A DNA stretch of 23,222 bases from a virus: positions 1 to 23,222 of the IMG/VR virus record IMGVR_UViG_3300025137_000308; one strand, written 5' to 3'. How positions within the stretch are numbered: the stretch's first letter is position 1; each line of letters opens with the position of its first letter. The translations under genes and the position numbers were made by a program. The notes beneath the pieces are model-generated. The model did not search any database. It was not told the origin of the DNA and saw nothing but the letters and a program-made list of their open reading frames with translations. Shown here piece after piece: positions 819 through 23,222 of the stretch.

Positions 819-1988
819 ATGAGTAACCAAATGCTAGAAAATATTGCTAAAACGCTGAACGTAGCGCCCGAAGTGGTGCAAAATAGGGCTGATGAAGTCC
901 TTGTAGAACAAGGGGGTGCATGGAGAAATGCAGGCCGTTCTGATGAAGATTGTGCGGTACTCGCACTAAGAGTCGCAGGGCGACAAATCTCTTCTGAATC
1001 TGCTAGACTACGAAGAACAGGCTCGGATGTTTTTGAGGGTATGTTTATTTCTGTACCGCGACCTAAAGAGTGGGGTAAAATACTATACAATAAGATGAAG
1101 AATCAACTTATGACTGCTACTGATGATGTACGACAAGTATTGATTGACAGTGGTGCGGTTGTTGTCTTTGAAGATAACAATGATGGAACGTACACAAGAT
1201 TGGCGGCAGAAATGTTCGGTATGGGTACTGAAAGTGATGTAGGTTCTCTACCAAAGCACACGATGATGCTTAATGGTAACACACATTTCTTTGTAGTATG
1301 GGATAAGAATAACCCAACATTCCCATCCGGTGATGCTAACTTCAAATACGGTGCGGCTCGACCTCAAGATGAGAGAGAAAGAACATCATTATTCTTTGGT
1401 CGAAAACAAGGTACTAATGATTCCTTAAAAATACTTAAAGTAAGTGGTAATGGTGCGGCGGCTGACAGACAATACCCGTCATTCACTCCATTAACTATAC
1501 CTATGAAGGGTGGCAAAAATGATAGATGCTACTTAAACGCAGATGTCTCAGTACATACTGTTGATGCTTCTTTGGCCGACTTATTTCAAGGTGCGCCTAC
1601 TGACATCATAGGTGGTCTGATTGGTGAAGAGAATCTTCTAGCCGGACTATCTGAATTAGGTACATACTACGACACATACAATGGTAAAGACGGTTGGTGG
1701 GATAGAAACTGCGCTGTTATTACCGAAGTAATACATATCGACCCAAGAGACAAAGGTGGGTATATCTTAGTTTGTGCTGATACAGACATGACATCTATGG
1801 CAGGTACGGTAGATGTATATTGTGATGAAGAAATTGACTTTGCAGTAGGAACAAAGATGCTACTACTAGGTGGGGCTTGGAGAAGTAGAGAAGGCGAAGA
1901 TAGATTATCAGTCAATGGTTGGTATGCTTTCGATGTCATCCCTCAGATGGTCGAGCCTGTCGTGGAAAACGACGGGTGGGAACAATGA
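819..1988 (+). CDS. Candidate OB-fold single-stranded DNA-binding (RPA-like) protein
   Basis: A 389-residue soluble protein that I do not recognise with certainty. The N-terminal 60 residues look helical (MLENIAKTLNV, then an Ala/Arg/Glu-rich stretch). The rest is rich in alternating hydrophobic and polar residues like beta strands, and the last about 110 residues (VITEVIHIDP, GYILVCADT, GTVDVYCDEEIDF, MLLLGGAWRSREGEDR, LSVNGWYAFDVIP) read like an OB-fold beta barrel. It has no P-loop, no cysteine cluster and no signal peptide. It lies between the clamp loader and the chaperonin genes in a replication operon that otherwise lacks an obvious ssDNA-binding protein, which is the main reason for the RPA-like guess. 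The ATG at 819 is preceded by GAGGT at 806-810. Its stop overlaps the next start (ATGA). Confidence 0.45.
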   Translation: MSNQMLENIAKTLNVAPEVVQNRADEVLVEQGGAWRNAGRSDEDCAVLALRVAGRQISSESARLRRTGSDVFEGMFISVPRPKEWGKILYNKMKNQLMTATDDVRQVLIDSGAVVVFEDNNDGTYTRLAAEMFGMGTESDVGSLPKHTMMLNGNTHFFVVWDKNNPTFPSGDANFKYGAARPQDERERTSLFFGRKQGTNDSLKILKVSGNGAAADRQYPSFTPLTIPMKGGKNDRCYLNADVSVHTVDASLADLFQGAPTDIIGGLIGEENLLAGLSELGTYYDTYNGKDGWWDRNCAVITEVIHIDPRDKGGYILVCADTDMTSMAGTVDVYCDEEIDFAVGTKMLLLGGAWRSREGEDRLSVNGWYAFDVIPQMVEPVVENDGWEQ

Positions 1989-2275
1989 AGGCCGTAGGTG
2001 ATTACGTTATCCTAAAGATGGCTGAGACAATCAGTACATCAGGTCTTATTACCGCAAAAGAATATGTTGTTGATAGTATAGGTTCTCTCGTACCCCTAAA
2101 AATAGGGTGCGGAGATACCGTACTGTTCAATGGTGATAAGATACAGATGACATTGGATGACGGTAGGGTTTGCCTACATTATTCTGACATCTTAGCATTT
2201 GATGGTGAGGAAGTACCTTACTATATAGGTGGAGAAGAATACTACGACCGAGACGTGCATGACGATTTTATATGA
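1985..2275 (+). CDS. groES: GroES-like co-chaperonin (cpn10)
   Basis: A 96-residue cpn10 protein, the usual length, expected to form the lid of a group I chaperonin. The N-terminus MKAVGDYVILK matches the GroES start pattern (PL-D-V-VK). A flexible region follows, with SGLIT at residues about 18-22 in the place of the hydrophobic mobile-loop tripeptide that docks on GroEL. CGDTVLFNG and the C-terminal YSDILAF match later cpn10 strands. Unlike typical GroES it carries an extra acidic, Tyr-rich tail (EEVPYYIGGEEYYDRDVHDDFI region). I chose the ATG at 1985, which overlaps the upstream stop as ATGA; the frame is open to a TTG at 1919, but the 22 extra residues do not look like cpn10. The groEL-like gene starts 9 bases downstream, and the pairing strengthens the call. 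Confidence 0.85.
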   Translation: MKAVGDYVILKMAETISTSGLITAKEYVVDSIGSLVPLKIGCGDTVLFNGDKIQMTLDDGRVCLHYSDILAFDGEEVPYYIGGEEYYDRDVHDDFI

Positions 2276-2284
2276 GGTATTTTT

Positions 2285-3829
2285 ATGGAAACAATATTAA
2301 CAGGAATGGAAGCAAAGAGTAAATTACTCAAAGGTGTGAACAAGGTTGCTAACGCAGTCAAGGGTACTTTAGGGGTGAATGCAAGAACGGTTATCATTCA
2401 GAACCCTAACGGTATGCCTGTCATTCTTAATGATGGTGTTACTGTTGCTAGGGCTATTAATGATGCAGACCCTTACGTACAAATGGGTATAGACTTACTT
2501 AAAGAAGTCGCTAGCGAAGCACAGGAGAAGTCGGGAGACGGTACTACTACTGCTACGCTTATAGCACAGGCTTTGTGTAATGGTTCTCTTACCTTGATAG
2601 AACAAGGTGTGAGTCCTATTGTTATTAGAGATGCTTTGGCTCACTTCTTAGAAGAAACAATACATTTCCTTAATGCGACTAAGACTGATGACTTCTCTAT
2701 CGAAGATGTGGCTACTATCGCCGCTAACAATGACCCATCGTTGGGTAAATTAATAGCAGATGTAGTTGCTAAGACAGGTAGCAAAGGTACTGTTACCATA
2801 GAAAAAAGTCCTACCTTTGAAACATACACAGAAGATGTGCAGGGGTTAGAGGTTCTATCGGGCTACGCACATAATGTTATGATAAACAGCCCGAAGGCTA
2901 GGTGCATCTTAGATAATCCTATGGTTATAGTAACAACCGAAAGGATTGAGACGTTCAATGCTTTGATACCTGCTTTAGAGTTAGCAGTCAAAGACAACAA
3001 ACCTATTGCTATATTCTGCACCGACTTTAATCATCAAGCGTTACAGAATCTTTTAGTCAATATAGCACAGGGTAAAATAAGTGCATTATTAGTTAAGCCA
3101 TCGGGTATGCCCGACGAACAACAAGCATGGTTGGAAGATATAGCATTAGTTACTAAAAGTAATTTGTTCAAGACTTCTCTAGGAGAATCTATCACTAAAC
3201 TAACTTCATTTGATGTAGGCTCATGTGATAAAATACAGGCTTCTGCTTTGACTACTATAATTACAGCGAGTGGAGAGTCGTCTGATGAATTAAATGAACA
3301 CCTAGATTCTTTGGCTTCTTATGAAGAAGAAGCAACTAATGATTGGATGCAACAATATTATAACAATCGTATATCAAGATTGACTAATGGTATATCTAAG
3401 ATATATGTCGGTGGTAAATCCGAGGTCGAACAACTAGAAAGAAAAGAACGTGTGGATGACGCAGTAAATGCTTGTCGTTTGGCTATGAATGGTGGTGTGG
3501 TAGCAGGTGGAGGTTCAGCACTATACTTCGCTCAAATGAGCCTAACCCCCTACCCCGAAGATGTATCAAGACACATTGGAAAATTATTTTGTCTTGGGTT
3601 AGAAGCACCCATAACTGCGATAATAGAGAACGCAGGTAATAATACAGGCGAGATACCTATAAATAAATACGGTCAATATATTTGCGGTAAAACTACTGAT
3701 GTTAGAAACGCATTTGATGATGGGGTTATTGACCCCGCACAGGTAACAATTAACAGTTTAGAATCTGCGGTTAGTGTAGCGGCATTACTTCTTATGACTG
3801 ATGCGGCAATACTTACTGAAAGTTTATAA
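2285..3829 (+). CDS. groEL: GroEL-like group I chaperonin (cpn60)
   Basis: ATP-driven protein-folding chamber subunit of 514 residues. It follows the GroEL pattern along its length: GVNKVANAVKGTLG (17-30), NDGVTVARAI with Asp50, and the nucleotide loop SGDGTTTAT with Asp85. KERVDDAVNA with Asp392 corresponds to the hydrolytic Asp398 of E. coli GroEL, and GGVVAGGGSAL follows it. The ATPase residues are therefore all present. It differs from E. coli GroEL (548 aa) by ending at MTDAAILTESL, right after the equatorial domain, so the Gly-Gly-Met tail is absent. The start is ATG at 2285, preceded by GAGGT overlapping the groES stop. Archaea normally use group II thermosomes, so a group I pair in this context points to acquisition from a bacterial-type source (inference). 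It may fold virion proteins. Confidence 0.95.
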   Translation: METILTGMEAKSKLLKGVNKVANAVKGTLGVNARTVIIQNPNGMPVILNDGVTVARAINDADPYVQMGIDLLKEVASEAQEKSGDGTTTATLIAQALCNGSLTLIEQGVSPIVIRDALAHFLEETIHFLNATKTDDFSIEDVATIAANNDPSLGKLIADVVAKTGSKGTVTIEKSPTFETYTEDVQGLEVLSGYAHNVMINSPKARCILDNPMVIVTTERIETFNALIPALELAVKDNKPIAIFCTDFNHQALQNLLVNIAQGKISALLVKPSGMPDEQQAWLEDIALVTKSNLFKTSLGESITKLTSFDVGSCDKIQASALTTIITASGESSDELNEHLDSLASYEEEATNDWMQQYYNNRISRLTNGISKIYVGGKSEVEQLERKERVDDAVNACRLAMNGGVVAGGGSALYFAQMSLTPYPEDVSRHIGKLFCLGLEAPITAIIENAGNNTGEIPINKYGQYICGKTTDVRNAFDDGVIDPAQVTINSLESAVSVAALLLMTDAAILTESL

Positions 3830-4801: not shown

Positions 4802-5608
4802 ATGATTACTGTTGATAGTAACTCCTTAACGTGGTTACTAACTTTGTCTCAAAGGAAACAAAATGTTTCCGGTAAAGTAATGCCACAGGTTCATTCTTTG
4901 ATGATGAGAGCAGTAGGTAGTAGACTTACTGCCTGCTCTCTTGTTAAGGATGGCTTGTCGTCATTGACATTATTATCTATACCTTGTTCCGGCACAGGAG
5001 ATTTTGCTATATCTGATATAGATGCTTTCTTAGGTGCTTTGAAATATCATGGTAATGCTATCACGTTAGAAATTGGTGAGGATAAAATTATCTTAAAATC
5101 ATCTAACAAACAAACTACTATGACTTCATCCGATAAGGCTTTAGCGTTTCCTCATACATCTTCTAATGTTAATGAGTGGGAGGCCAAGTCTGTAAGGTTG
5201 GCTACTAAGATAGACCTACAAGATATTACTTATCAATTGAATAGTGGAGGTAAAAGAAAACCTTTCACTTCTTGGTTAGACATAGACACTACCACTTTGT
5301 ATGAAGCATTTAGGTGTGATAATATGAACAACCAAAGATACAACCTATACACAGTAACTTCTGATGAGAGAGGATTATGTGTGGAAGTAGGTAAGAATCT
5401 TAAAGGTAAAACTATCTCTCAAATAGACCCACAACCACAGGCTGTTTTCGAGGCAGTTTATATGGGTGGTTTAGAGTATGTTTTTAAAGAGTTAACAGGC
5501 ACAGCAAGCGTACACTTTTTTGACTTTAGACCCGAAGGACAGGGTATCAGAATGCTAATTACATTAGGTGATGGCGACTTTATTTTCCAAGCGAGTAACT
5601 TGGGGTGA
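4802..5608 (+). CDS. pcn: PCNA-like sliding clamp
   Basis: A 268-residue protein with the length and layout of an archaeal or viral PCNA (about 250 aa), expected to form a trimeric ring that tethers the polymerase. Two repeated beta-alpha-beta halves are discernible: the first includes LTACSLVKDGLSSLTLLSI and FLGALKYHGNAITLEI (about residues 38-98). The second ends with GGLEYVFKEL, VHFFDF, GIRMLITLG and DFIFQAS, which correspond to the last domain of sliding clamps. Sequence identity to cellular PCNA looks low, so the call rests on pattern and on its place between the clamp-loader/RecA-like genes and the polymerase. The start is at ATG 4802 with GGAGTGAT over the stop of the preceding gene. 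Its own stop lies inside the Shine-Dalgarno of the next gene. Confidence 0.75.
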   Translation: MITVDSNSLTWLLTLSQRKQNVSGKVMPQVHSLMMRAVGSRLTACSLVKDGLSSLTLLSIPCSGTGDFAISDIDAFLGALKYHGNAITLEIGEDKIILKSSNKQTTMTSSDKALAFPHTSSNVNEWEAKSVRLATKIDLQDITYQLNSGGKRKPFTSWLDIDTTTLYEAFRCDNMNNQRYNLYTVTSDERGLCVEVGKNLKGKTISQIDPQPQAVFEAVYMGGLEYVFKELTGTASVHFFDFRPEGQGIRMLITLGDGDFIFQASNLG

Positions 5609-10743: not shown

Positions 10744-11451
10744 ATGTTACTAGTAGATGATAGAGAAAACCCAAAAGTAATTAACAAGTTGTTAATGCGT
10801 ATGGGTGAAAATAACGTAAAAGTATGTAGAATGGTGAGTGCTGATTATGCTATGGGTACTTGGGGTGTTGAGGCTAAAGAAATTAACGACCTTTTTCGTT
10901 CCATTCTTGGTATTGGTCGCAATAGAACTATCGTTTCTCAGTTGAGAGACTTACAGGATAACTACGACAATCCCGTACTAGTAGTTTATGGTGCAAAGTT
11001 AAAACCTTGGGTAGCCACCGGAAGGCCATCAGCAAAACAAATTGCTACCGAAATGTCTCGTATGAAAAAAGTAAATACACAATTCAAAATGACATTTCAT
11101 CAAAGATTCCCTAAAATTAAATATATGGAATTGAATACTATGGATGAGTTTGTCGAATGGTTAGTAGTAAATCATACCCAACTAGGAATGGCTTTCTCTA
11201 ATCACGATTCAGATACACAAAAGGCTATAAAAAAAGGAGAATTAGACCCTCGTATCGCATTTCTTTCTTCCGTAAAAGGAGTAACCCCCACTATGGCTCA
11301 AGATTTATTAGAAGAGTTTGGTAGCATACCTAAACTACTTAGGGTTAGGACTACGCAAAAAGCAGTTATGGCTGTCAAGGGTGTAGGTAGGCAAAGAGCG
11401 CAGGATATACTAGCACTAAGAGATAACTTAGAAGATGTACCATTCAAGTGA
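10744..11451 (+). CDS. XPF/ERCC4-type structure-specific nuclease with HhH motifs
   Basis: A 235-residue nuclease of the XPF/Mus81/Hef superfamily. The ERCC4 domain starts at the N-terminus with VDDREN (Asp5, Asp6, Arg7, Glu8). The central motif reads VEAKEIND (Glu43, Lys45, Asp49), where the usual ERKxxxD has Ala in place of Arg. VLVVYGAKL is the following core strand. The C-terminal part (about 170-230) contains two helix-hairpin-helix units, VKGVTPTMAQDLLEEFGS and VKGVGRQRAQDIL. There is no helicase domain, like the short crenarchaeal XPF. It would cut flaps, forks or recombination intermediates. Short archaeal XPF enzymes work with PCNA, but no PIP box is evident at the C-terminus here. 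Its last 8 bases overlap the end of the convergent tail gene. Confidence 0.9.
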   Translation: MLLVDDRENPKVINKLLMRMGENNVKVCRMVSADYAMGTWGVEAKEINDLFRSILGIGRNRTIVSQLRDLQDNYDNPVLVVYGAKLKPWVATGRPSAKQIATEMSRMKKVNTQFKMTFHQRFPKIKYMELNTMDEFVEWLVVNHTQLGMAFSNHDSDTQKAIKKGELDPRIAFLSSVKGVTPTMAQDLLEEFGSIPKLLRVRTTQKAVMAVKGVGRQRAQDILALRDNLEDVPFK

Positions 11452-14400
11452 GAGTAGAAAACTTTGCAGAAGAAGAAGGTGTGTGTGCAGAAGCACGGTG
11501 CATTTTTACTTCTAAATCGTGTAATATTATTGAAGATTCATTTGCTGTGTCATTTGCTGTTGCGGGTACTCTACTTATTGTTACCTTAATATTATTACCT
11601 ATTACATCCACTCCTTTCAAACTCGTAGTAGGCATTAAAATAATATTTTGTTTGTTTAACCCTCTACTTACATTTATTGTATTAGTTATATTCTTACCCG
11701 TATCTTCTAAACATTCTATGGTGACATATAATATTCCGTATTCCATAAGTGATAAAACTCCACCATGACTTACACAAGCAGAAATACTTATTCTGTTACT
11801 TAGCACATCTTTAGGTACGACAAAAGAAGTTTGTATAGATACTTCTTGATTAGAAATTGATGATGAATCACTTGCTTGTAATCCTTTACCCGCAAAAACA
11901 TAACCTTCTGCTGTTCTTATAGCAGTCCCGCTTATGGGTGTTATATCAACACTCATTCCCTCTATACCTCTCATACTAGAAGGTGTAGGGGGTATAGGTG
12001 TTTGTCCTAATATACTAAACTTAGAATCTCCCGACAGCATATCATTTTGTATATTCATTCTGTTATGGTTATTAAGTATCGCAGATTTCTTTTTATTACT
12101 AAAGGTTGCTATTGATTCTTCGTTCCCATCATCCCTACCATCTTTGTTTTTTTGGGTATCATCATCTAAAGCAACATTTGAAGGGTTGTTAGGTATAGGT
12201 ACGTAACCTCCTTCTCCATAAACCCCTTGACTTATTCCAGTAGAAGTTCCTTGAGTTGAAGATGAGCCACCTTGAATATTTTGATTTATTTCTGGAAATA
12301 AGAAACTCATAAAGCCTTCTGTCGCTATGGATTCATCTCTCTCTAAATTTAGGGTTACATCTTCTGTCTTTCCTGCGTTAATAGACCAATCTAATGCTTT
12401 TATTACTAAAGTTTCAGAGTTTAAACCTAAACCTGCATCGGTAAAGGAAACATAAGTAGCAGGGGTGTAAGAAACATCTCTTGTTATCAGAATCTTAGGT
12501 GCATACCATTCTGCCCTAGTGGTCTTAAACCCACCACCCATCTCGCTGTATTCTCTCATACCTAGAGGGAATATTGTATTAGTGTTTGTTGCTACCTGCG
12601 CTAAGATATTAGCGTCTGTTGGGTCGCCACATCTATGACGCAGTAAAGCCCTACAATATTCTGCGTTAAAACTAACTACCATGTTTCCTACGCTTGTATC
12701 GCTGTATGTCGAAGGTAAAGCCAACTCATAAAAACCACTATGTTTTACATTTACACTTGCTACACTTTTGTTTGTTGGGTGAATTGCCCTAGTTTCACCG
12801 ACAAAAGAATAATCCGCTACGTGTATAGTAAACTCGGCAGTATCTATGGTAGCATCACTTTCTTGTGAAGCCTTCAAATCTATCCATATACGCATAGGCT
12901 CTCCATAATTGTCGCTAACAAATGGTGTGTTATTGGGTATGTGTACGATTTGTACGGCGTTAGATATAGACCCACTACCATACCAATAAAAATTGTCAGC
13001 CCAAGGAATATCACCACTTGTAGTTACGTCTTTACTTATCCCATATCTTGCATACAAATCAGTAGATGTTTTTTGGTTGCCATCTAAAGCATTTACCATG
13101 CCATTAAACAAAGCACCACCTGTACCTAATCTAGTCCAATTACATACCTTAGTATAGTCATCATCTGTACCTTCTAAGGCAACGTAAGAATCTGCTATAT
13201 ACCCATACCTACCCGTACCTATCATTTTGTATTGCTCGCCTTCTTCTAAAATAGGACTTGCAGTTATTTTTAAGGGTTTTTCTTTGTAAGTATTGTATTG
13301 TTTTTTGGCTAATATTTGTGCTTCTAAACTTTGTGTAACCGTAGGATATTCTAATATCTTCCATCTAGTACTATCTGTGAGATTTGTGGCCGGATAATCC
13401 ACAAAACTTTTACCGTTATTATAATATACTCTCACATTAGTAATTTGTGATGTAGTAGTAGCACTCATATTACTTATTCTTATATTATTTCTTGATAAAA
13501 CTTTACCACTATTATATTTAGGTCTAAACTCAAATCTGTTGTCTCTACCTATTAAGAATGAAAAACTAGTATTGAGGTTATTTTCTGTACCGACACCACT
13601 ATTACTTCTTATGTTTTGAATAGTACTTAAAAATGTCTTACCTTTACTATTTACTATTGAGCCGTAACTATCATTACTACTTGTGGAATTGTAGGTTGTC
13701 ATATTAGAAGTGATTGGTACGTTATTAATATCATACATTGTTCTAACGGTTGTGGGGGGTAGCCAAGTGTCCATAATAGAAGCATTCCACAATGTTCTAA
13801 ACTTATCGCTCTCCCAAAAAGTACCACTGTTTTTGTTTTTGACATCTCCTTCGATGTGCATTAATAATCTTAACATATATTGACTGTGTACTGTGGCATG
13901 AACCTCCATAGAGGTTGGTTTAGTACTATCCTCTGTTAAATCGTAGTTTGTAATTATTCCGTAATCATCCCAAGTTTGGGAAGTAGAGGTATGTATATCC
14001 CAAATGTTTTGTTCTAAGGATGTTAAATCTGTGCCGGCACTTTCAGTTATGTTTTGTTCTGCCACCATAAATATTTTACCCAATTGAACGGGTACTTCGT
14101 AGGTATCACCCGCAGCCCAAGTACCGCTTACCTTCAACACGGTTTCACTAATTACTTCTATTATATATTCTCTTGTATAAACACCACTTCTTATTTTTTT
14201 AATTAACATACCTTGTTTTAAGCCCGCAGTAACATGGCCTGCACTAGCGTTAGTTATTGTTGTAAACGTATTGAAGGATTCAATAGTACTGACGATGGGA
14301 TTCGAGTCTACTGAACTAGGGGAAGTGTATTTTGTACCTAGTTTATTATGCCAAGCAAAATAATAAGTTTCAGTAGTTCTATTTTCACCACTACCAAAAA

Positions 14401-17400
14401 CAGTAATTAATTTACCTACTCCGGTGTCATCAAAATCAGTTGCGTCATCAATAGGTATTCCCTTGTCGTTTTTAATAAAACCATCACTTGCTAGTGTGGC
14501 AGTAGAAATTAATCTATATTGTGCAGGATGCCCCCCCGTTATATCTGAGGTTGTTTGATATGAAGCAGTAGCCTCGGCCCAATAATTATCTATAAGTGCA
14601 GGAAACCCTTGTCTGACTTGTACGTAGTCTCCTAAATCCGTACCTAGACCCGATACCATACCTGTTCTACCCCCATTTATATTACTATTAAGGTTAAAAA
14701 AAGGTGACGAATCAATAATTAATAAAGCACCGCCTTTAGTTTCCCAATCTTTATATTGAGAGTAGTCTTGGTCGCTACCTGTTGTAGTATAGAAATATCC
14801 TTTGGAATTACTTCCTCCGGTTATCGACATAGTAGCACTAGTAAAGGTACTAGACGTAACTAAATAATTACTCTGTACGTTTGTTATTGTATGGTAGCCA
14901 TCATGGGATGCAGTACCTACTAAGTAGACTAAATCACCATTAGCAAATCCTGTAATTGGTGTTGATGCGCCGTTAATTCTTAGTTTTCCATTTCCGTCAT
15001 TCTGTATAGGATTTGTAATTGCTAAGTTTTTAGGGTCAGAATAATTTACAGGTTTGGAAAATGGTTTGTTTGTAATTGGTTCGATAGTAGTATCTAAGTT
15101 CCAAATACTTATGTCTTTATTTACTTCTAAACTACCAAAAGTATCAATGTTACCGTCTGCATCAAATTGGTCTGCGTAATACATATTTATATTATAATTA
15201 TCTTCTAAAGGATATTGTAACCCAAATGCCTTTTTCCTTTTAGAACCGTCTGCATCTGCTAATCCATTATTTCTCATGTCGGCCCACAATAACCAAAGAT
15301 GTTTGTAATCATCACTAATATTTTGAAATTTTATTTTATTTGTCGAGCCGGAAACTGTGAAATTTATATATTTACAACCTATTAAATAATATTTATTATT
15401 AGTATTTATTTTACCTTCGTAAACAAACTTGCCTTTAAAAGCATCTACATTTCTATTTGGGATAAAAGTACTATTATCCCATATTTCTGCCACACCACTA
15501 GAAGAAGCAGCAGAGTAAGCAGCAGAAGTTATTTCTATTGTTGTTGTAGAAGGAGTGACAGAAGTGCTTATTAATAATTGATTGTCATAATTACTACCCA
15601 ATTGTTCTTCTGCTATCTTACCAAATTGATACCTAAACCATAATGAGTTAGGTAAATCTCTCATCCATTTTGCGTGTATCGCTCTATGTCTAAGTGGCGC
15701 GCCTAAATCTGTGAAAAAACTACTCTCTACTCTACCATAATCTTTAGACCATTCAAATCTATCAGTCAAAGTTAACATAGTATCAAAATCAACAGGAGAA
15801 ACAAAAACAGGAGTGTTTAGACCATAGGCAGAAGTGATACCACTAACACCTGTTAAAGTATTATTACTTCTATTTGTCCATGTAATAGTCCTTCTCATTA
15901 ACGGTGAATTACTTCCACCCATTTCTGCTGTTCCGTTTGTAGGGAAGAGAGAAGCGTCATCCAATATAATAGCGGTTGCCCCGGAAACAGCAGCGTTTGC
16001 TAATCTAGAAACAGGTGCATAAGAACCATGTTCTGCGTACTCAAAAGGATATTCGGTAAAGGTTTGTACTACCCATAGTGGGGTGGCTGACCAATTTATA
16101 CTACCTATTGATTCTATTTGTGGGCCTTGAGTGTCGTGTGTTATTCCTGTTGCGGTAACTGTGCTGTCATAATTATTAAAATACCCTACTATTTTATATA
16201 CGCTTTTAACTTTATGTCTACCAATATATGCAGAACTAAGTCCTGTTGAATTATCCATAGCCTCTTTGTTAATATAGAAATAATCGTGTATATTTAAAGA
16301 AGGGTCTGCGTCATAATATACATTCATAAAATGTGGCCCTTCGTGGGAAGATATATCACTATATTTTGGGTGATTTTCTTTAAACTCTCCCCAAGCATTA
16401 GCGTGGTCTTGATAAGTGTAATCTGTTCCTGTCGATACAAAGTTAACCCACTCATCATAAGACGGTAAGGCGCTTTGTTGGTTTCCTATGTATATTATTT
16501 TTGCTGTTTCAGCAGAAAAAGACAAATCACCGGAAGCAAAGGTTAAAAGAGCGCCACTAACTGCTGTTGGTGTTATACTAGTAGCGTTATGGTTTTTACT
16601 CACTATATCTATTGCTGTTGAAGTACTTATTTCATGTGTAGCACTACTTAAATGTACCAAAGTATTTCCCGAAGCATCCTTTTGAAAGCCTAATATGTGT
16701 AACCCCTCGTAATTTTCCTCTATACTGTTAGGGCCGAAAATTTCATTTTCGTTGTTATACATTTGTATAGGTAGACCAGAGTTTTGTTGTGTTCTCTGTG
16801 TACTTGTTTCCAAATAACTACTATTTACATCAAAACCTACATCATTATTTGTAATTTTTAATTTTGATGCACCGAGATTCATTATGTCTTTAAATCCTTT
16901 AGCGTCGTATAACCAATAAGGTGTTTCTTCTGCTTCATCGTTTAAATTTTCTTGGCCTATTTCCCAAAGAGGTACTTGCTTACCTAAAAAGGATAAAGAA
17001 TCTTGGGCGCTAAAGGTTAAACTTCTTTCTCTTTTTCTTTGGTCTATTTTAAAATTAGTAATATCACCCCTATACAAAGGTCTATCTATTCTATTATTTT
17101 TATCTGCAAAGAATAAAACTTCCCAATCTAAAGGAGAGGATGAAGTAAATAAATCGGTTACTGATTCTACATAATCTCCTGCGTTTAAACCAGTATCACC
17201 ATTTGCCGCTCTGTCTGCCTCATCTGTTACCTTTGCAGTAAAATTACTTATACCATTAACTTGTTTATTTAGTCTAACACTTTGTATTTGTACTTCGTCA
17301 CTAGTCGTAATATCATCAGTAAGATACCTTACCATGCCTACTCGGTCTAACATTAAATATGATACGTAACCAAAATTACCATTACTACTTTCTTGGCTAT

Positions 17401-18574
17401 TAACTGTCATTTGCCAACCATATAGTGAAGAAGCAACTGTATTAGTACCTTGAGGCATAGAACCGTTTAAAACAACTCTTGTTCCGTTAACATAAACATC
17501 AAACTTACCTGTTGAATATTTCATAACAAAATCAATATCTAACCAAGCATCATCATTACTATATGATTGTAAATTAGAGCCGTCATATAAAAGACCATAA
17601 GAATCATATGCACTTATTATACCTGAAAAGGTATTACTTAAATCTAAATTGTATGTTACCGCAGGAATACCTGCGTGTCCTGCGTCAGACGTTAAAACAG
17701 TAGATGTTGGAGTAGGAAACCCTATCTCAAACTTTATACCTACCTCATCCCATTGAGAAGAACCTTCTGCAATAAAACTTCTTAAGGCTAACCTAGTGGT
17801 AAAAACATCCCTATCTAACTGTGTGTTTAATTTACCGTCATATATTATAGTTGGTATATCCTGTGAATCTGTGTGTGCTTTTCTAGTTGTTTGTACGCAA
17901 AGAAAGGGTTTTTTTGAGGGAGAAGTAACTTCAGCAAAAACCTTTGAGGGAATTACACTACTACTTTGTACTAGTTTTTCTCCCATCCAAGAACCTGTAA
18001 GATGCGCTCTTTGTGAGAAGTTTCCTGTTGTGGAAATAAACCCTGCGTTTTCAGCAGCAAAGTTAGTAGCGTCAAATCTTTTCATATCTGCTCTACCAAA
18101 AGTAGCGTCGTTGTCACCAACAGATATTATATAAGAACTATTAGTATCGTGTCCATTTACAAATCTTTGATAACCTACGTTACCTTCTGATGTACTACCA
18201 CCAAATCTGTATCGGTTGGCTACGTGTCCGTCGGGGTATTGTAATTGTACTCTACCCTCCCACTCAGAAGAATTATTTCTTTTACTGTCTAATGTTAACC
18301 ATTCAAACACTCCGTTGTTACGAAGATATTGGTTATCACCATCAACCCCACTAACGTGAGTAGAGTTTATTAATTTTCTATCCGCTATACTAAATCTGTA
18401 TCTTGGGTTGAGAGAAGCCTCACCGTTCATAGGATTTCCAAAATGACTTACTGCTACTGAGTATGATGTATCAGAGGGTAGTTGTAAATTATCGGGAATA
18501 GCCCTAGCCCCATTAAAATCATCGTAATAGCCCGCAAGCCATACTTGATATATTTTTGTTACTTCTCTTACCAC
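11444..18574 (-). CDS. Giant baseplate hub / tail-tip protein, 2376 aa
   Basis: This structural protein follows the tape measure gene, the position of tail-tip/hub proteins. Its middle has a hub-like first half at about 425-530 (VQIQSVRLNKQVNGISNFTAK ... LYRGDITNFKIDQ ... LTFSAQDSLSFLG), resembling gpD/gp27-type hubs. A matching later part sits at about 1672-1790 (GRDNRFEFRPKYN, ITNVRVYYNNGKSF, LEAQILAKKQYN). Between them lies over 1100 residues of insertion. About 240-415 looks like a concanavalin/LamG sandwich (DIDFVMKYSTGKFDVYVNGTR). Small beta modules common in phage tips occur near 858-885 (SGATAIILDDASLFPTNG), 1210-1245 (GDLVYLVGTASHDGYHTIT) and 1437-1485. A Ser/Gly/Asn-rich linker at about 2095-2190 leads to a C-terminal beta domain. 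The start is GTG at 18574 with AGGTGA upstream. Host recognition by the inserts is inference. Confidence 0.8.
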   Translation of the reverse strand: MVREVTKIYQVWLAGYYDDFNGARAIPDNLQLPSDTSYSVAVSHFGNPMNGEASLNPRYRFSIADRKLINSTHVSGVDGDNQYLRNNGVFEWLTLDSKRNNSSEWEGRVQLQYPDGHVANRYRFGGSTSEGNVGYQRFVNGHDTNSSYIISVGDNDATFGRADMKRFDATNFAAENAGFISTTGNFSQRAHLTGSWMGEKLVQSSSVIPSKVFAEVTSPSKKPFLCVQTTRKAHTDSQDIPTIIYDGKLNTQLDRDVFTTRLALRSFIAEGSSQWDEVGIKFEIGFPTPTSTVLTSDAGHAGIPAVTYNLDLSNTFSGIISAYDSYGLLYDGSNLQSYSNDDAWLDIDFVMKYSTGKFDVYVNGTRVVLNGSMPQGTNTVASSLYGWQMTVNSQESSNGNFGYVSYLMLDRVGMVRYLTDDITTSDEVQIQSVRLNKQVNGISNFTAKVTDEADRAANGDTGLNAGDYVESVTDLFTSSSPLDWEVLFFADKNNRIDRPLYRGDITNFKIDQRKRERSLTFSAQDSLSFLGKQVPLWEIGQENLNDEAEETPYWLYDAKGFKDIMNLGASKLKITNNDVGFDVNSSYLETSTQRTQQNSGLPIQMYNNENEIFGPNSIEENYEGLHILGFQKDASGNTLVHLSSATHEISTSTAIDIVSKNHNATSITPTAVSGALLTFASGDLSFSAETAKIIYIGNQQSALPSYDEWVNFVSTGTDYTYQDHANAWGEFKENHPKYSDISSHEGPHFMNVYYDADPSLNIHDYFYINKEAMDNSTGLSSAYIGRHKVKSVYKIVGYFNNYDSTVTATGITHDTQGPQIESIGSINWSATPLWVVQTFTEYPFEYAEHGSYAPVSRLANAAVSGATAIILDDASLFPTNGTAEMGGSNSPLMRRTITWTNRSNNTLTGVSGITSAYGLNTPVFVSPVDFDTMLTLTDRFEWSKDYGRVESSFFTDLGAPLRHRAIHAKWMRDLPNSLWFRYQFGKIAEEQLGSNYDNQLLISTSVTPSTTTIEITSAAYSAASSSGVAEIWDNSTFIPNRNVDAFKGKFVYEGKINTNNKYYLIGCKYINFTVSGSTNKIKFQNISDDYKHLWLLWADMRNNGLADADGSKRKKAFGLQYPLEDNYNINMYYADQFDADGNIDTFGSLEVNKDISIWNLDTTIEPITNKPFSKPVNYSDPKNLAITNPIQNDGNGKLRINGASTPITGFANGDLVYLVGTASHDGYHTITNVQSNYLVTSSTFTSATMSITGGSNSKGYFYTTTGSDQDYSQYKDWETKGGALLIIDSSPFFNLNSNINGGRTGMVSGLGTDLGDYVQVRQGFPALIDNYWAEATASYQTTSDITGGHPAQYRLISTATLASDGFIKNDKGIPIDDATDFDDTGVGKLITVFGSGENRTTETYYFAWHNKLGTKYTSPSSVDSNPIVSTIESFNTFTTITNASAGHVTAGLKQGMLIKKIRSGVYTREYIIEVISETVLKVSGTWAAGDTYEVPVQLGKIFMVAEQNITESAGTDLTSLEQNIWDIHTSTSQTWDDYGIITNYDLTEDSTKPTSMEVHATVHSQYMLRLLMHIEGDVKNKNSGTFWESDKFRTLWNASIMDTWLPPTTVRTMYDINNVPITSNMTTYNSTSSNDSYGSIVNSKGKTFLSTIQNIRSNSGVGTENNLNTSFSFLIGRDNRFEFRPKYNSGKVLSRNNIRISNMSATTTSQITNVRVYYNNGKSFVDYPATNLTDSTRWKILEYPTVTQSLEAQILAKKQYNTYKEKPLKITASPILEEGEQYKMIGTGRYGYIADSYVALEGTDDDYTKVCNWTRLGTGGALFNGMVNALDGNQKTSTDLYARYGISKDVTTSGDIPWADNFYWYGSGSISNAVQIVHIPNNTPFVSDNYGEPMRIWIDLKASQESDATIDTAEFTIHVADYSFVGETRAIHPTNKSVASVNVKHSGFYELALPSTYSDTSVGNMVVSFNAEYCRALLRHRCGDPTDANILAQVATNTNTIFPLGMREYSEMGGGFKTTRAEWYAPKILITRDVSYTPATYVSFTDAGLGLNSETLVIKALDWSINAGKTEDVTLNLERDESIATEGFMSFLFPEINQNIQGGSSSTQGTSTGISQGVYGEGGYVPIPNNPSNVALDDDTQKNKDGRDDGNEESIATFSNKKKSAILNNHNRMNIQNDMLSGDSKFSILGQTPIPPTPSSMRGIEGMSVDITPISGTAIRTAEGYVFAGKGLQASDSSSISNQEVSIQTSFVVPKDVLSNRISISACVSHGGVLSLMEYGILYVTIECLEDTGKNITNTINVSRGLNKQNIILMPTTSLKGVDVIGNNIKVTISRVPATANDTANESSIILHDLEVKMHRASAHTPSSSAKFSTLT

Positions 18575-21668: not shown

Positions 21669-22315
21669 TTAATCATCACTACTCTTGCCCTCATTAGGCA
21701 CTCCGCTATCTCTCAATATGTTGAGTAGTTCGTTGTTGTTGTTTAATAGTTTGCGTTTTTCCCTTCTTTGGTCACGTCTAGCAACTGCACCCTTAGCATC
21801 TGTTTTAGACGCTTGGGTTGTCACTTCTTTAATATTATCATTTATATTTGCTGCTATTATTAAATCTAAATCCATTAAATGTCTACCGCCCTCTACATTA
21901 TATTTTAACCATAAATCCGAGGGTAAAACCCCCTTGAAGGCCATACATAGAGAGGGGGCTACTCTAATAAAGTCTATAAAGGGACAGCGCCATCCTTGTC
22001 GTCGCCTCTTACAAAACTTAATATTGACATTAATTCCTCAGTAGTTAGCATATTTACATCAATATCTTCGCTTAATATACACGGGGGAATCCATACACCT
22101 ATTTGCGTAGTTAATCCACCATCTAAATCTTCTATGATAGCAGAAAACTCTTCATTTTGTTCGTCTGTCCAATTTTCCGGTTCACCTGCGTGGCGCATTT
22201 TTCTAAACGCTTTACCTTGTGCAGTAGTTACTGCTAACTTTTCCATACCGGAGGCTTGTCTAACCCAAATCTTTGTTCCATCTTCTAACTCTATTTCTTT
22301 CTTCAATACAGGCAT
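21669..22315 (-). CDS. Tail assembly chaperone, -1 frameshift fusion product (about 215 aa)
   Basis: Inferred long product of the two-frame tail chaperone locus, equivalent to lambda gpGT. Ribosomes would read the 113-residue frame from 22315, slip back one base on C CCT TTA (21983-21977), and continue in the -1 frame to 21669. The -1 frame is open from the heptamer: it adds IDFIRVAPSLC, then the 91 residues beginning MAFKGVLPSDLW. That join reads smoothly as protein, and the pattern fits GT-type tails, which recruit the tape measure protein. The downstream half ends in a basic then Asn/Asp-rich segment (RRDQRREKRKLL). The ATG at 21944 could also start a separate 91-residue protein, but it lacks a clear ribosome site. 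The gene lies directly before the tape measure gene, the conserved position of this pair. Confidence 0.75.
21927..21960 (-). other. Stem-loop downstream of the slippery site
   Basis: On the minus strand AGCCCCCT (21960-21953) can pair with AGGGGGTT (21934-21927), with five G-C pairs, two A-T pairs, a terminal-side G-T wobble and an 18-base loop. It begins about 16 bases after the heptamer, farther than the usual 5-9, so its role as frameshift stimulator is possible but not certain. A pseudoknot or an alternative fold could shorten the distance. Confidence 0.5.
21974..22315 (-). CDS. Tail assembly chaperone, short (gpG-like) product
   Basis: The unshifted product of the same locus, 113 residues, ending at a TAG immediately after the slippery heptamer. 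The N-terminus is beta-like (VLKKEIELEDGTKIWVRQASG), as in many tail chaperones that start with a short strand pair describing a quantity to be multiplied. It continues into a helical body (MEKLAVTTAQGKAFRKM, NWTDEQNEEFSAIIEDL) and ends LSFVRGDDKDGAVPL. No family is recognised by sequence alone; the call rests on gene order (tube, chaperone, tape measure) and on the frameshift arrangement. The start is ATG 22315; the ribosome site is weak (GTGTGG). Confidence 0.75.
   Translation of the reverse strand: MPVLKKEIELEDGTKIWVRQASGMEKLAVTTAQGKAFRKMRHAGEPENWTDEQNEEFSAIIEDLDGGLTTQIGVWIPPCILSEDIDVNMLTTEELMSILSFVRGDDKDGAVPL
21977..21983 (-). promoter_or_regulatory. -1 programmed frameshift slippery heptamer CCCTTTA
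   Basis: On the minus strand the upstream frame reads GTC CCT TTA TAG, so the heptamer C CCT TTA has the canonical X XXY YYZ form in the correct phase. The zero-frame stop follows it directly. The -1 frame (CCC TTT ATA GAC) is open into the downstream chaperone half. Both tRNAs can re-pair (CCU to CCC, UUA to UUU). Confidence 0.8.
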
Positions 22316-22372: not shown

Positions 22373-22576
22373 TTACTCTTCTTTCTTTTCTTTTACGGGT
22401 AAAACAACTTTAGTTTTAGGTTTTTCCTCTACCTTTTTAACAACTTTAGCCTTTACTTTTAACATTGGGTATTGCTTACAATACTTCATAACTTTTCTTT
22501 TATCAGTCATAGACAAAAGTGTTTCCATCATGTGTTCCGGTATATCTCTATTTAATGAATCTATAAAATCTTTCAT
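22373..22576 (-). CDS. Small Lys-rich protein of the tail module, 67 aa
   Basis: The first about 38 residues look helical (FIDSLNRDIPEHMMETLLSM, then KRKVMKYCKQYPML), and the rest is a Lys/Val/Pro/Glu-rich tail (VKAKVVKKVEEKPKTKVVLP), probably disordered. I do not recognise the family. It is well supported as a gene by a strong GGTGATTAA just before the ATG at 22576 and by a gap of only 9 bases from the tube gene stop. It lies where some siphoviruses have an extra tail chaperone or tail completion protein; that role is a guess from position. Confidence 0.6.
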   Translation of the reverse strand: MKDFIDSLNRDIPEHMMETLLSMTDKRKVMKYCKQYPMLKVKAKVVKKVEEKPKTKVVLPVKEKKEE

Positions 22577-22585
22577 TTAATCACC

Positions 22586-23222
22586 TTAGTATGCAGAATC
22601 TTTATCAGAACCAAGCATTGTTACATTCATAGCCTTATTTGCACCACTTGCTGTTGCGTCATATAGTGCTACGAAACCAACACTCATTGTGTTTGTATCT
22701 CTTCCGCTTACGTTAGCGGTAGGTGTTTCCCATCTAATATGATAGAAATGGAAAGTAATGTGGTTTGTACCTGCTTCATCAGCAAACTTTAATACCATTG
22801 TTGGTGCGTCATCAACAGTTGAATAATCTAATCCGTCTGTTGAAACTAATGCTGAATAATCCGGCTCATCTAATGCTTGGTCGCCATAAAGTACCTTGTT
22901 AAACTCGACTGTTCCTGTAATCTCTCTTCGTTGCATCTTTGGTTGGCTACCGTATGTGCTTTGTCCTATTGCATATGCGTTATCTGTGTCGGGGTTTAGA
23001 CTAATTTGGAAATCAACTGATTTAACACTTGCTGATGCCGCCGGTGCTGTACCTGTTACATCGTCAAACTTTACCTCACCGTTAGCAAAGTAAAGAGCGT
23101 CAACTGCGTCTCCTGCATAAGTAACTGTTTGTGGGTCAATTTCCACTACTGCACCTACTGCTTGGCTAGTACCTAAGTCGCCGGTAAGCGTTAAAGTATC
23201 TGTGCTTAAGCCCGACCAAGTA
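22586..23222 (-). CDS. Major tail tube protein, 5' partial
   Basis: The frame is open to the right edge of the window, giving 211 visible residues; the apparent GTG start at 23146 is internal, because the upstream in-frame sequence (TWSGLSTDTLTLTGDLGTS) continues without a stop and is similar in character. The protein is beta-rich and low in Lys and Cys, with strands such as SVDFQISLNPDTDNAY, REITGTVEFNKVL, TMVLKFADEAGTNHITFHFYHIRW and TMSVGFVALYDA. These fit the tube fold that stacks as hexamers. Its place upstream of the chaperone and tape measure genes is the conserved one. No sheath gene is visible between tube and tape measure, but a sheath would lie upstream, outside the window, so siphovirus versus myovirus is not settled. 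Confidence 0.8.
   Translation of the reverse strand, partial: TWSGLSTDTLTLTGDLGTSQAVGAVVEIDPQTVTYAGDAVDALYFANGEVKFDDVTGTAPAASASVKSVDFQISLNPDTDNAYAIGQSTYGSQPKMQRREITGTVEFNKVLYGDQALDEPDYSALVSTDGLDYSTVDDAPTMVLKFADEAGTNHITFHFYHIRWETPTANVSGRDTNTMSVGFVALYDATASGANKAMNVTMLGSDKDSAY

Follow-up and report, generated by a model that had tools for sequence, protein, structure and literature searches.

A putative −1 frameshift site, conserved among relatives, at the tail assembly chaperone locus of an archaeal-type marine virus

Frameshifted tail chaperones and the affiliation of the virus

The chaperone frameshift of lambda G/GT is conserved in long-tailed dsDNA phages according to Xu, Hendrix and Duda (2004), in the account that the review PMC5009743 gives of that work. 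In tailed viruses of haloarchaea, frameshifted tail chaperones have been reported for HVTV-1 and HCTV-1, -2 and -5 (PMC5009743, PMC8211752) and for Hardycor1 (PMC7911831), and HSTV-2 likely uses a +1 frameshift (PMC5009743, PMC8211752); for HVTV-1, we read the GGGAAAG site and the joined gene directly in the sequence. Frameshifting in archaeal viruses is therefore not new in itself, and the suggestion in the preliminary description of our locus, that the site is a new sign of the mechanism on archaeal ribosomes, had been anticipated by these reports. For the Aoguangviridae/Magrovirales, PolB, an RFC small subunit, GroEL/ES, two opposed gene clusters and an annotated tail assembly chaperone have been described, in a profile that leaves frameshifting unmentioned (PMC10768690). 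Our literature search found no relevant paper tying magroviruses or other Poseidoniales viruses to frameshifting, which does not prove absence elsewhere.

Here we describe a locus in a viral DNA stretch of 23,222 nucleotides, analysed as a whole and referred to as the window. It has in common with lambda G/GT the gene order before the tape measure gene, a short form with a rarer −1 fusion as the predicted products, and an X_XXY_YYZ heptamer near the end of the first ORF. The lambda slip site is purine-rich. The window and its relatives differ from lambda in a pyrimidine site, C_CCU_UUA/G, in an archaeal-type host and in the lack of detectable sequence similarity to known chaperone families. 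With HVTV-1, HCTV-1/-2/-5 and Hardycor1, the window shares the setting of an archaeal tailed virus with a −1 chaperone directly before the tape measure gene; the sites of these viruses are G_GGA_AAC/AAG/AAT or A_AAA_AAC, unlike the pyrimidine site of the window family, and pyrimidine slip sites are not among the haloarchaeal ones in the literature examined. A sequence link between the window family and the HVTV-1 chaperone was also sought, and the comparison gave no significant similarity. Within the literature searched, the family-wide record, the pyrimidine site and the dependence of base X on the A-site codon (X/Z) appear to be new. With this locus, the users of programmed frameshifting would come to include viruses that infect uncultured marine archaea of very high abundance.

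Regarding affiliation, the best matches of the window PolB are haloarchaeal tailed viruses and its clamp loader is closest to the archaeal RFC small subunit. The window also codes for an ERCC4 nuclease and a GroEL, the latter about 32-35% identical to the phage GroEL compared. Together with two oppositely transcribed clusters and a tail assembly chaperone, PolB, the RFC small subunit and GroEL are common to the window and the Aoguangviridae/Magrovirales, and the view that this is an archaeal-type virus is borne out by the match of PolB, the RFC small subunit, the ERCC4 nuclease and GroEL to the Aoguangviridae gene set. YSH_150918 carries PCNA, MCM and TFB genes; the candidate clamp (PCNA) ORF of the present virus gave no sequence match. 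Among 12 long relatives, whose contigs are fragments, no TFB was found, and MCM-like matches were weak and confined to 3 of the 12. A search for host genomes carrying the chaperone found none. By its predicted genes, the virus matches the Magrovirales, an order of viruses of marine Poseidoniales; the host is likely a member of the Poseidoniales, as judged from replication genes, gene content and the literature rather than from a tree or a host genome.

Slip site and reading frames of the chaperone gene

On the minus strand, the 113-codon ORF of the window ends in GAT GGC GCT GTC CCT TTA TAG, in which the heptamer C CCT TTA stands in the right phase and is followed at once by the zero-frame TAG (21983-21974). 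The −1 frame stays open over 21 codons ahead of this TAG and 101 codons beyond it, and it runs through 11 codons into a 91-residue downstream half, as the preliminary description had read it; the junction peptide, GAVPL|IDFIR, is likewise the one given there. The features are listed in Table 1.

Table 1. Positions of features in the window (numbered from its first letter)
Feature	Position	Strand	Remarks
GroES-like ORF	1985-2275	+	just upstream of GroEL; assigned from its place and appearance only; no match to a family
GroEL, bacterial-type	2285-3829	+	PHROG 5725, E 3e-104
2376-aa protein	11444-18574	-	no match in PHROG; follows the tape measure gene; probable tail tip or fibre protein
Tape measure protein, 1027 aa	18583..21666	-	PHROG 28 (E 2e-21); 11 other tape-measure families also match
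−1 frame extension (T-like half)	21669..21977	-	102 codons after the slip, and stop; −1 coding periodicity from the slip on
Stop of −1 extension	21669-21671	-
8-pair stem AGCCCCCT/AGGGGGTT	21927..21960	-	one G-U pair; loop of 18 nt; begins 16 nt past the heptamer; no support for a role
First ATG of −1 frame, start of 91-aa ORF	21942..21944	-	probably no translation start
11-codon stretch IDFIRVAPSLC	21945..21977	-	readable by frameshift only; slip to first ATG
First codon of −1 extension, ATA	21975-21977	-
TAG stop of zero-frame ORF	21974-21976	-	read in the sequence
Slippery heptamer C_CCT_TTA	21977..21983	-	phase right for −1; TAG directly after
Zero-frame ORF, 113 aa, gpG-like tail assembly chaperone (putative)	21974..22315	-	AF2 pLDDT 95; weak 2OB9 fold match; between tail-protein and tape-measure genes
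67-aa lysine-rich ORF	22373..22576	-	between tail protein and chaperone; no family match
Tail protein, probably tail tube protein	22586..23221	-	truncated at the end of the window; minor tail protein PHROG 290 (E 8e-6)

The gene order is tail protein, 67-aa ORF, chaperone pair and tape measure, in which the identification of the tube protein is weak (PHROG 290). No significant sequence match was obtained for the chaperone pair against the Pfam and PHROG chaperone families. The top PDB fold match of the first half is 2OB9, the HK97 tail assembly chaperone, with an E value of 0.18 and a probability of 0.57, which is not significant alone; this half also has several weak matches in BFVD named tail assembly chaperone. 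The second half has as its best BFVD match a viral protein of 85 aa with 47% identity, about the length expected from annotation at the internal ATG, and a frameshift would account for annotation of the second half as a short gene in its own right. A chaperone of G/GT type is the best account of the gene order and fold matches. The earlier assignment of the two frames as gpG/gpGT equivalents agrees with the gene order, the 2OB9 match and the BFVD names, while the fold matches are individually weak.

Taken with the comparative data below, these sequences make it very probable that the two frames are one tail assembly chaperone gene of the lambda G/GT type in a Magrovirales virus, yielding a short form and a fusion by −1 frameshifting. 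We infer the slippage itself, the slip rate and the chaperone role, and envisage the following course. Most ribosomes would end at TAG and release the 113-aa short form. In a minority, with CCU in the P site and UUA in the A site, both tRNAs would slip back by one base onto CCC and UUU, and the slipped ribosomes would continue in −1, giving a fusion of 215 aa. By analogy with the roles of the two forms in lambda (PMC5009743), the short form would serve as a coat on the tape measure protein, with the rarer fusion recruiting tail tube protein.

In a single genome, the slip site and the frame layout are suggestive only and could have arisen by chance. When the codons of the 113-codon ORF were shuffled, 0.69 in-phase heptamers were found anywhere in the ORF, and the probability that one falls by chance on the final two sense codons in a single gene is about 1%.

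Conservation and evolution of the slip site

IMG/VR was searched for relatives with the first ORF and, separately, with the −1 half, which gave 100 loci, counting the window, that differ from one another over the junction. Of these 100, 99 retain a slip site of unchanged position and phase, with the −1 frame after it; this rules out a chance origin of the site and is the outcome of the alignment of related contigs that had been proposed as a check. The search with the −1 half alone added 10 distinct loci, all 10 with CCCTTTG and, upstream of it, a first ORF of the expected kind. This comparative support is far stronger than any from a single genome.

The site takes several forms among the 99 loci: C_CCT_TTG in 48, C_CCT_TTA in 15, N_CCT_TTT in 24 (N being C in 15), N_CAT_TTT in 2, and AAT_TTT_TTG, equivalent to T_TTT_TTG one codon later, in 10. 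A full X_XXY_YYZ is present in 88 and absent in 11. The term "textbook heptamer" therefore holds for the window and those 88 loci, but not for the remaining 11 relatives, nor for one contig in which the second half lies in +1. The latter, L037 (IMGVR_UViG_3300025110_000229, 5001-5345), has the site GTA TCC TTT CGT TGA, two bases longer than in relatives, and is the only relative with its second half in this frame. It may represent a real switch of frameshift polarity or an indel error in assembly; a pattern search for sister contigs gave that same contig only. Judged from its description, HSTV-2 would likewise have the opposite polarity in the same gene pair.

Changes were counted by the Fitch method on a tree of the fused proteins (99 sequences). 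Ahead of the site, zero-frame third positions mostly underwent 21-38 changes apiece; over the 99 sequences, no change was counted at the third base of the P-site codon or at the two T that follow it. Right after the site, the fast positions are the third positions of the −1 frame, and the codon periodicity of the related loci thus changes frame at the slip site. Among pairs with identical amino acids, the Pro codon was always CCT, while other codons agreed in 30-70% of cases.

A protein-level need for Gly-Ala-Val-Pro-Leu, with the slippery match incidental, would also keep the heptamer, and the zero-frame residues at the site are themselves conserved. The conserved bases, however, include third positions: X is C over Val, Ile, Leu, Thr and Pro codons, the Pro codon is CCT and the Leu codon TTR. 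Moreover, the relatives with AAT_TTT_TTG have changed residues and kept slipperiness, and no Leu-type locus was found with other synonymous codons at the site and the −1 arrangement unchanged. We consider this explanation hardly credible. Nor do we give more than negligible weight to transcriptional, rather than ribosomal, slippage as the source of the fusion. T-runs of six do occur in the AAT_TTT_TTG and CCT_TTT_TTG types, but the run in the window and in most relatives is no more than CCCTTT(A/G), too short for the usual polymerase slippage, and the codon phase, the C run and the T run are all under selection. Ribosomal −1 frameshifting remains the preferred reading of the site.

The conservation of base X depends on the A-site codon. 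Where this codon is Leu (UUA/UUG), X is C in 63 of 63 loci with 0 changes, although the first base of X's own codon changes 14 times in these loci; the X-bearing codon specifies Val, Ile, Leu, Thr or Pro, and the Leu codon is always TTR. As background, about 10% of Val and Ile codons end in C. In the 36 Phe-type loci (A-site UUU), by contrast, X changes 13 times, a contrast with few independent origins, as the tree has only two Leu/Phe transitions; other nearby third positions change less in the Phe type than in the Leu type. As read from these sequences, the rule is that X is always C with an A-site Leu codon UUA/UUG and drifts with the Phe codon UUU. The tRNA-Phe may thus be able to slip alone on UUU.

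Tentatively, and with slightly less than even confidence, we suggest that the family may represent a natural mutagenesis experiment on −1 slippage in archaea. With a Leu A-site codon UUA/UUG, both tRNAs would have to re-pair and X would be fixed as C; with Phe UUU, re-pairing of one tRNA-Phe would suffice, which would leave X and even the Pro codon free to drift; and the lineage of L037 would have moved to +1 at UUU_C to make the same fusion. The link between the A-site codon and the freedom of base X amounts to a rule, open to testing, for how archaeal ribosomes slip, a subject on which very few cases have been studied.

Start signals of the second half and candidate RNA stimulators

Without any frameshift, the two frames could be separate overlapping genes, with the 91-aa protein made from its own ATG by translational coupling. 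The ATG of the window lies 11 codons after the slip, an ATG is present in the overlap in 65 of 85 loci, and the proximity of stop and start permits coupling. Among the same 85 loci, the distance from the slip to the motif F/Y-K-G is 16 codons in every one, but 20 have no ATG in the overlap, and 13 of these also have no GTG or TTG; no ATG further upstream in the −1 frame was found in the 20. The absence of an overlap ATG from 20 of 85 loci argues strongly against independent initiation.

The Shine-Dalgarno (SD) energy of the overlap ATGs, calculated with an anti-SD sequence assumed to be canonical, is -2.5, compared with -7.0 for the start of the chaperone (G), -6.6 for that of the tape measure and -3.4 for random positions. 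A strong ribosome site of its own for the downstream frame, named beforehand as a finding that would speak against frameshifting, is thus not seen, the SD strength being at background. Ahead of the ATG, the codons show the changes of a −1 coding sequence: in extension codons 5-10, which lie beyond all zero-frame stops but short of the ATG position, 2043 of 2916 differences fall at −1 third positions. The consensus of the extension before the ATG is F-x-x-V-A-P-S-L-C, and in the AF2 models the extension is confident at residues 1-50, with the pre-ATG residues within a predicted helix (pLDDT >90). The conservation of the slip site against codon usage likewise speaks against separate genes. From these features, the ATG of the 91-aa ORF is probably not a translation start, and we regard two separate genes as very improbable.

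A GC-rich 8-bp stem after the site had been noted in the window. The stem is present, but a stimulator role for it is not borne out: folding of a 60-nt stretch proved no more stable than that of shuffled sequences (z +0.75), the stem is invariant in 12 close relatives and hence without covariation, and no conservation was seen beyond this clade of 12. A universal RNA stimulator was also sought, and rejected: alifold on all 78 aligned sequences gave no structure, and the mean single-sequence z was -0.5.

Two clades have structures of their own. In the AAT_TTT_TTG clade, an 8-bp hairpin, GTGAGGGT-TGC-ACCCTCAC, lies 5 nt after T_TTT_TTG (alifold z -3.2) and is a plausible stimulator in this clade only. 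The hairpin is near-invariant in L138, L139, L140, L142-L144 and L148. In the CCT_TTT clade, a two-part stem lies 5 nt after the A-site codon (z -1.8).

The coding sequence upstream of the slip site is SD-like, with an energy of -8.6 compared with -8.0 for synonymous shuffles, 0 of 100 shuffles being as strong; the position of the stretch varies from 4 to 19 nt, and the related sequences are not independent. This points weakly to a possible stimulator role. In the 24 nt upstream of the slip site, the R-G-D-D-x-E-G codons are conserved in all loci and are Shine-Dalgarno-like beyond synonymous shuffles. Within this stretch, GGA is avoided as the Gly codon (2 of 99).
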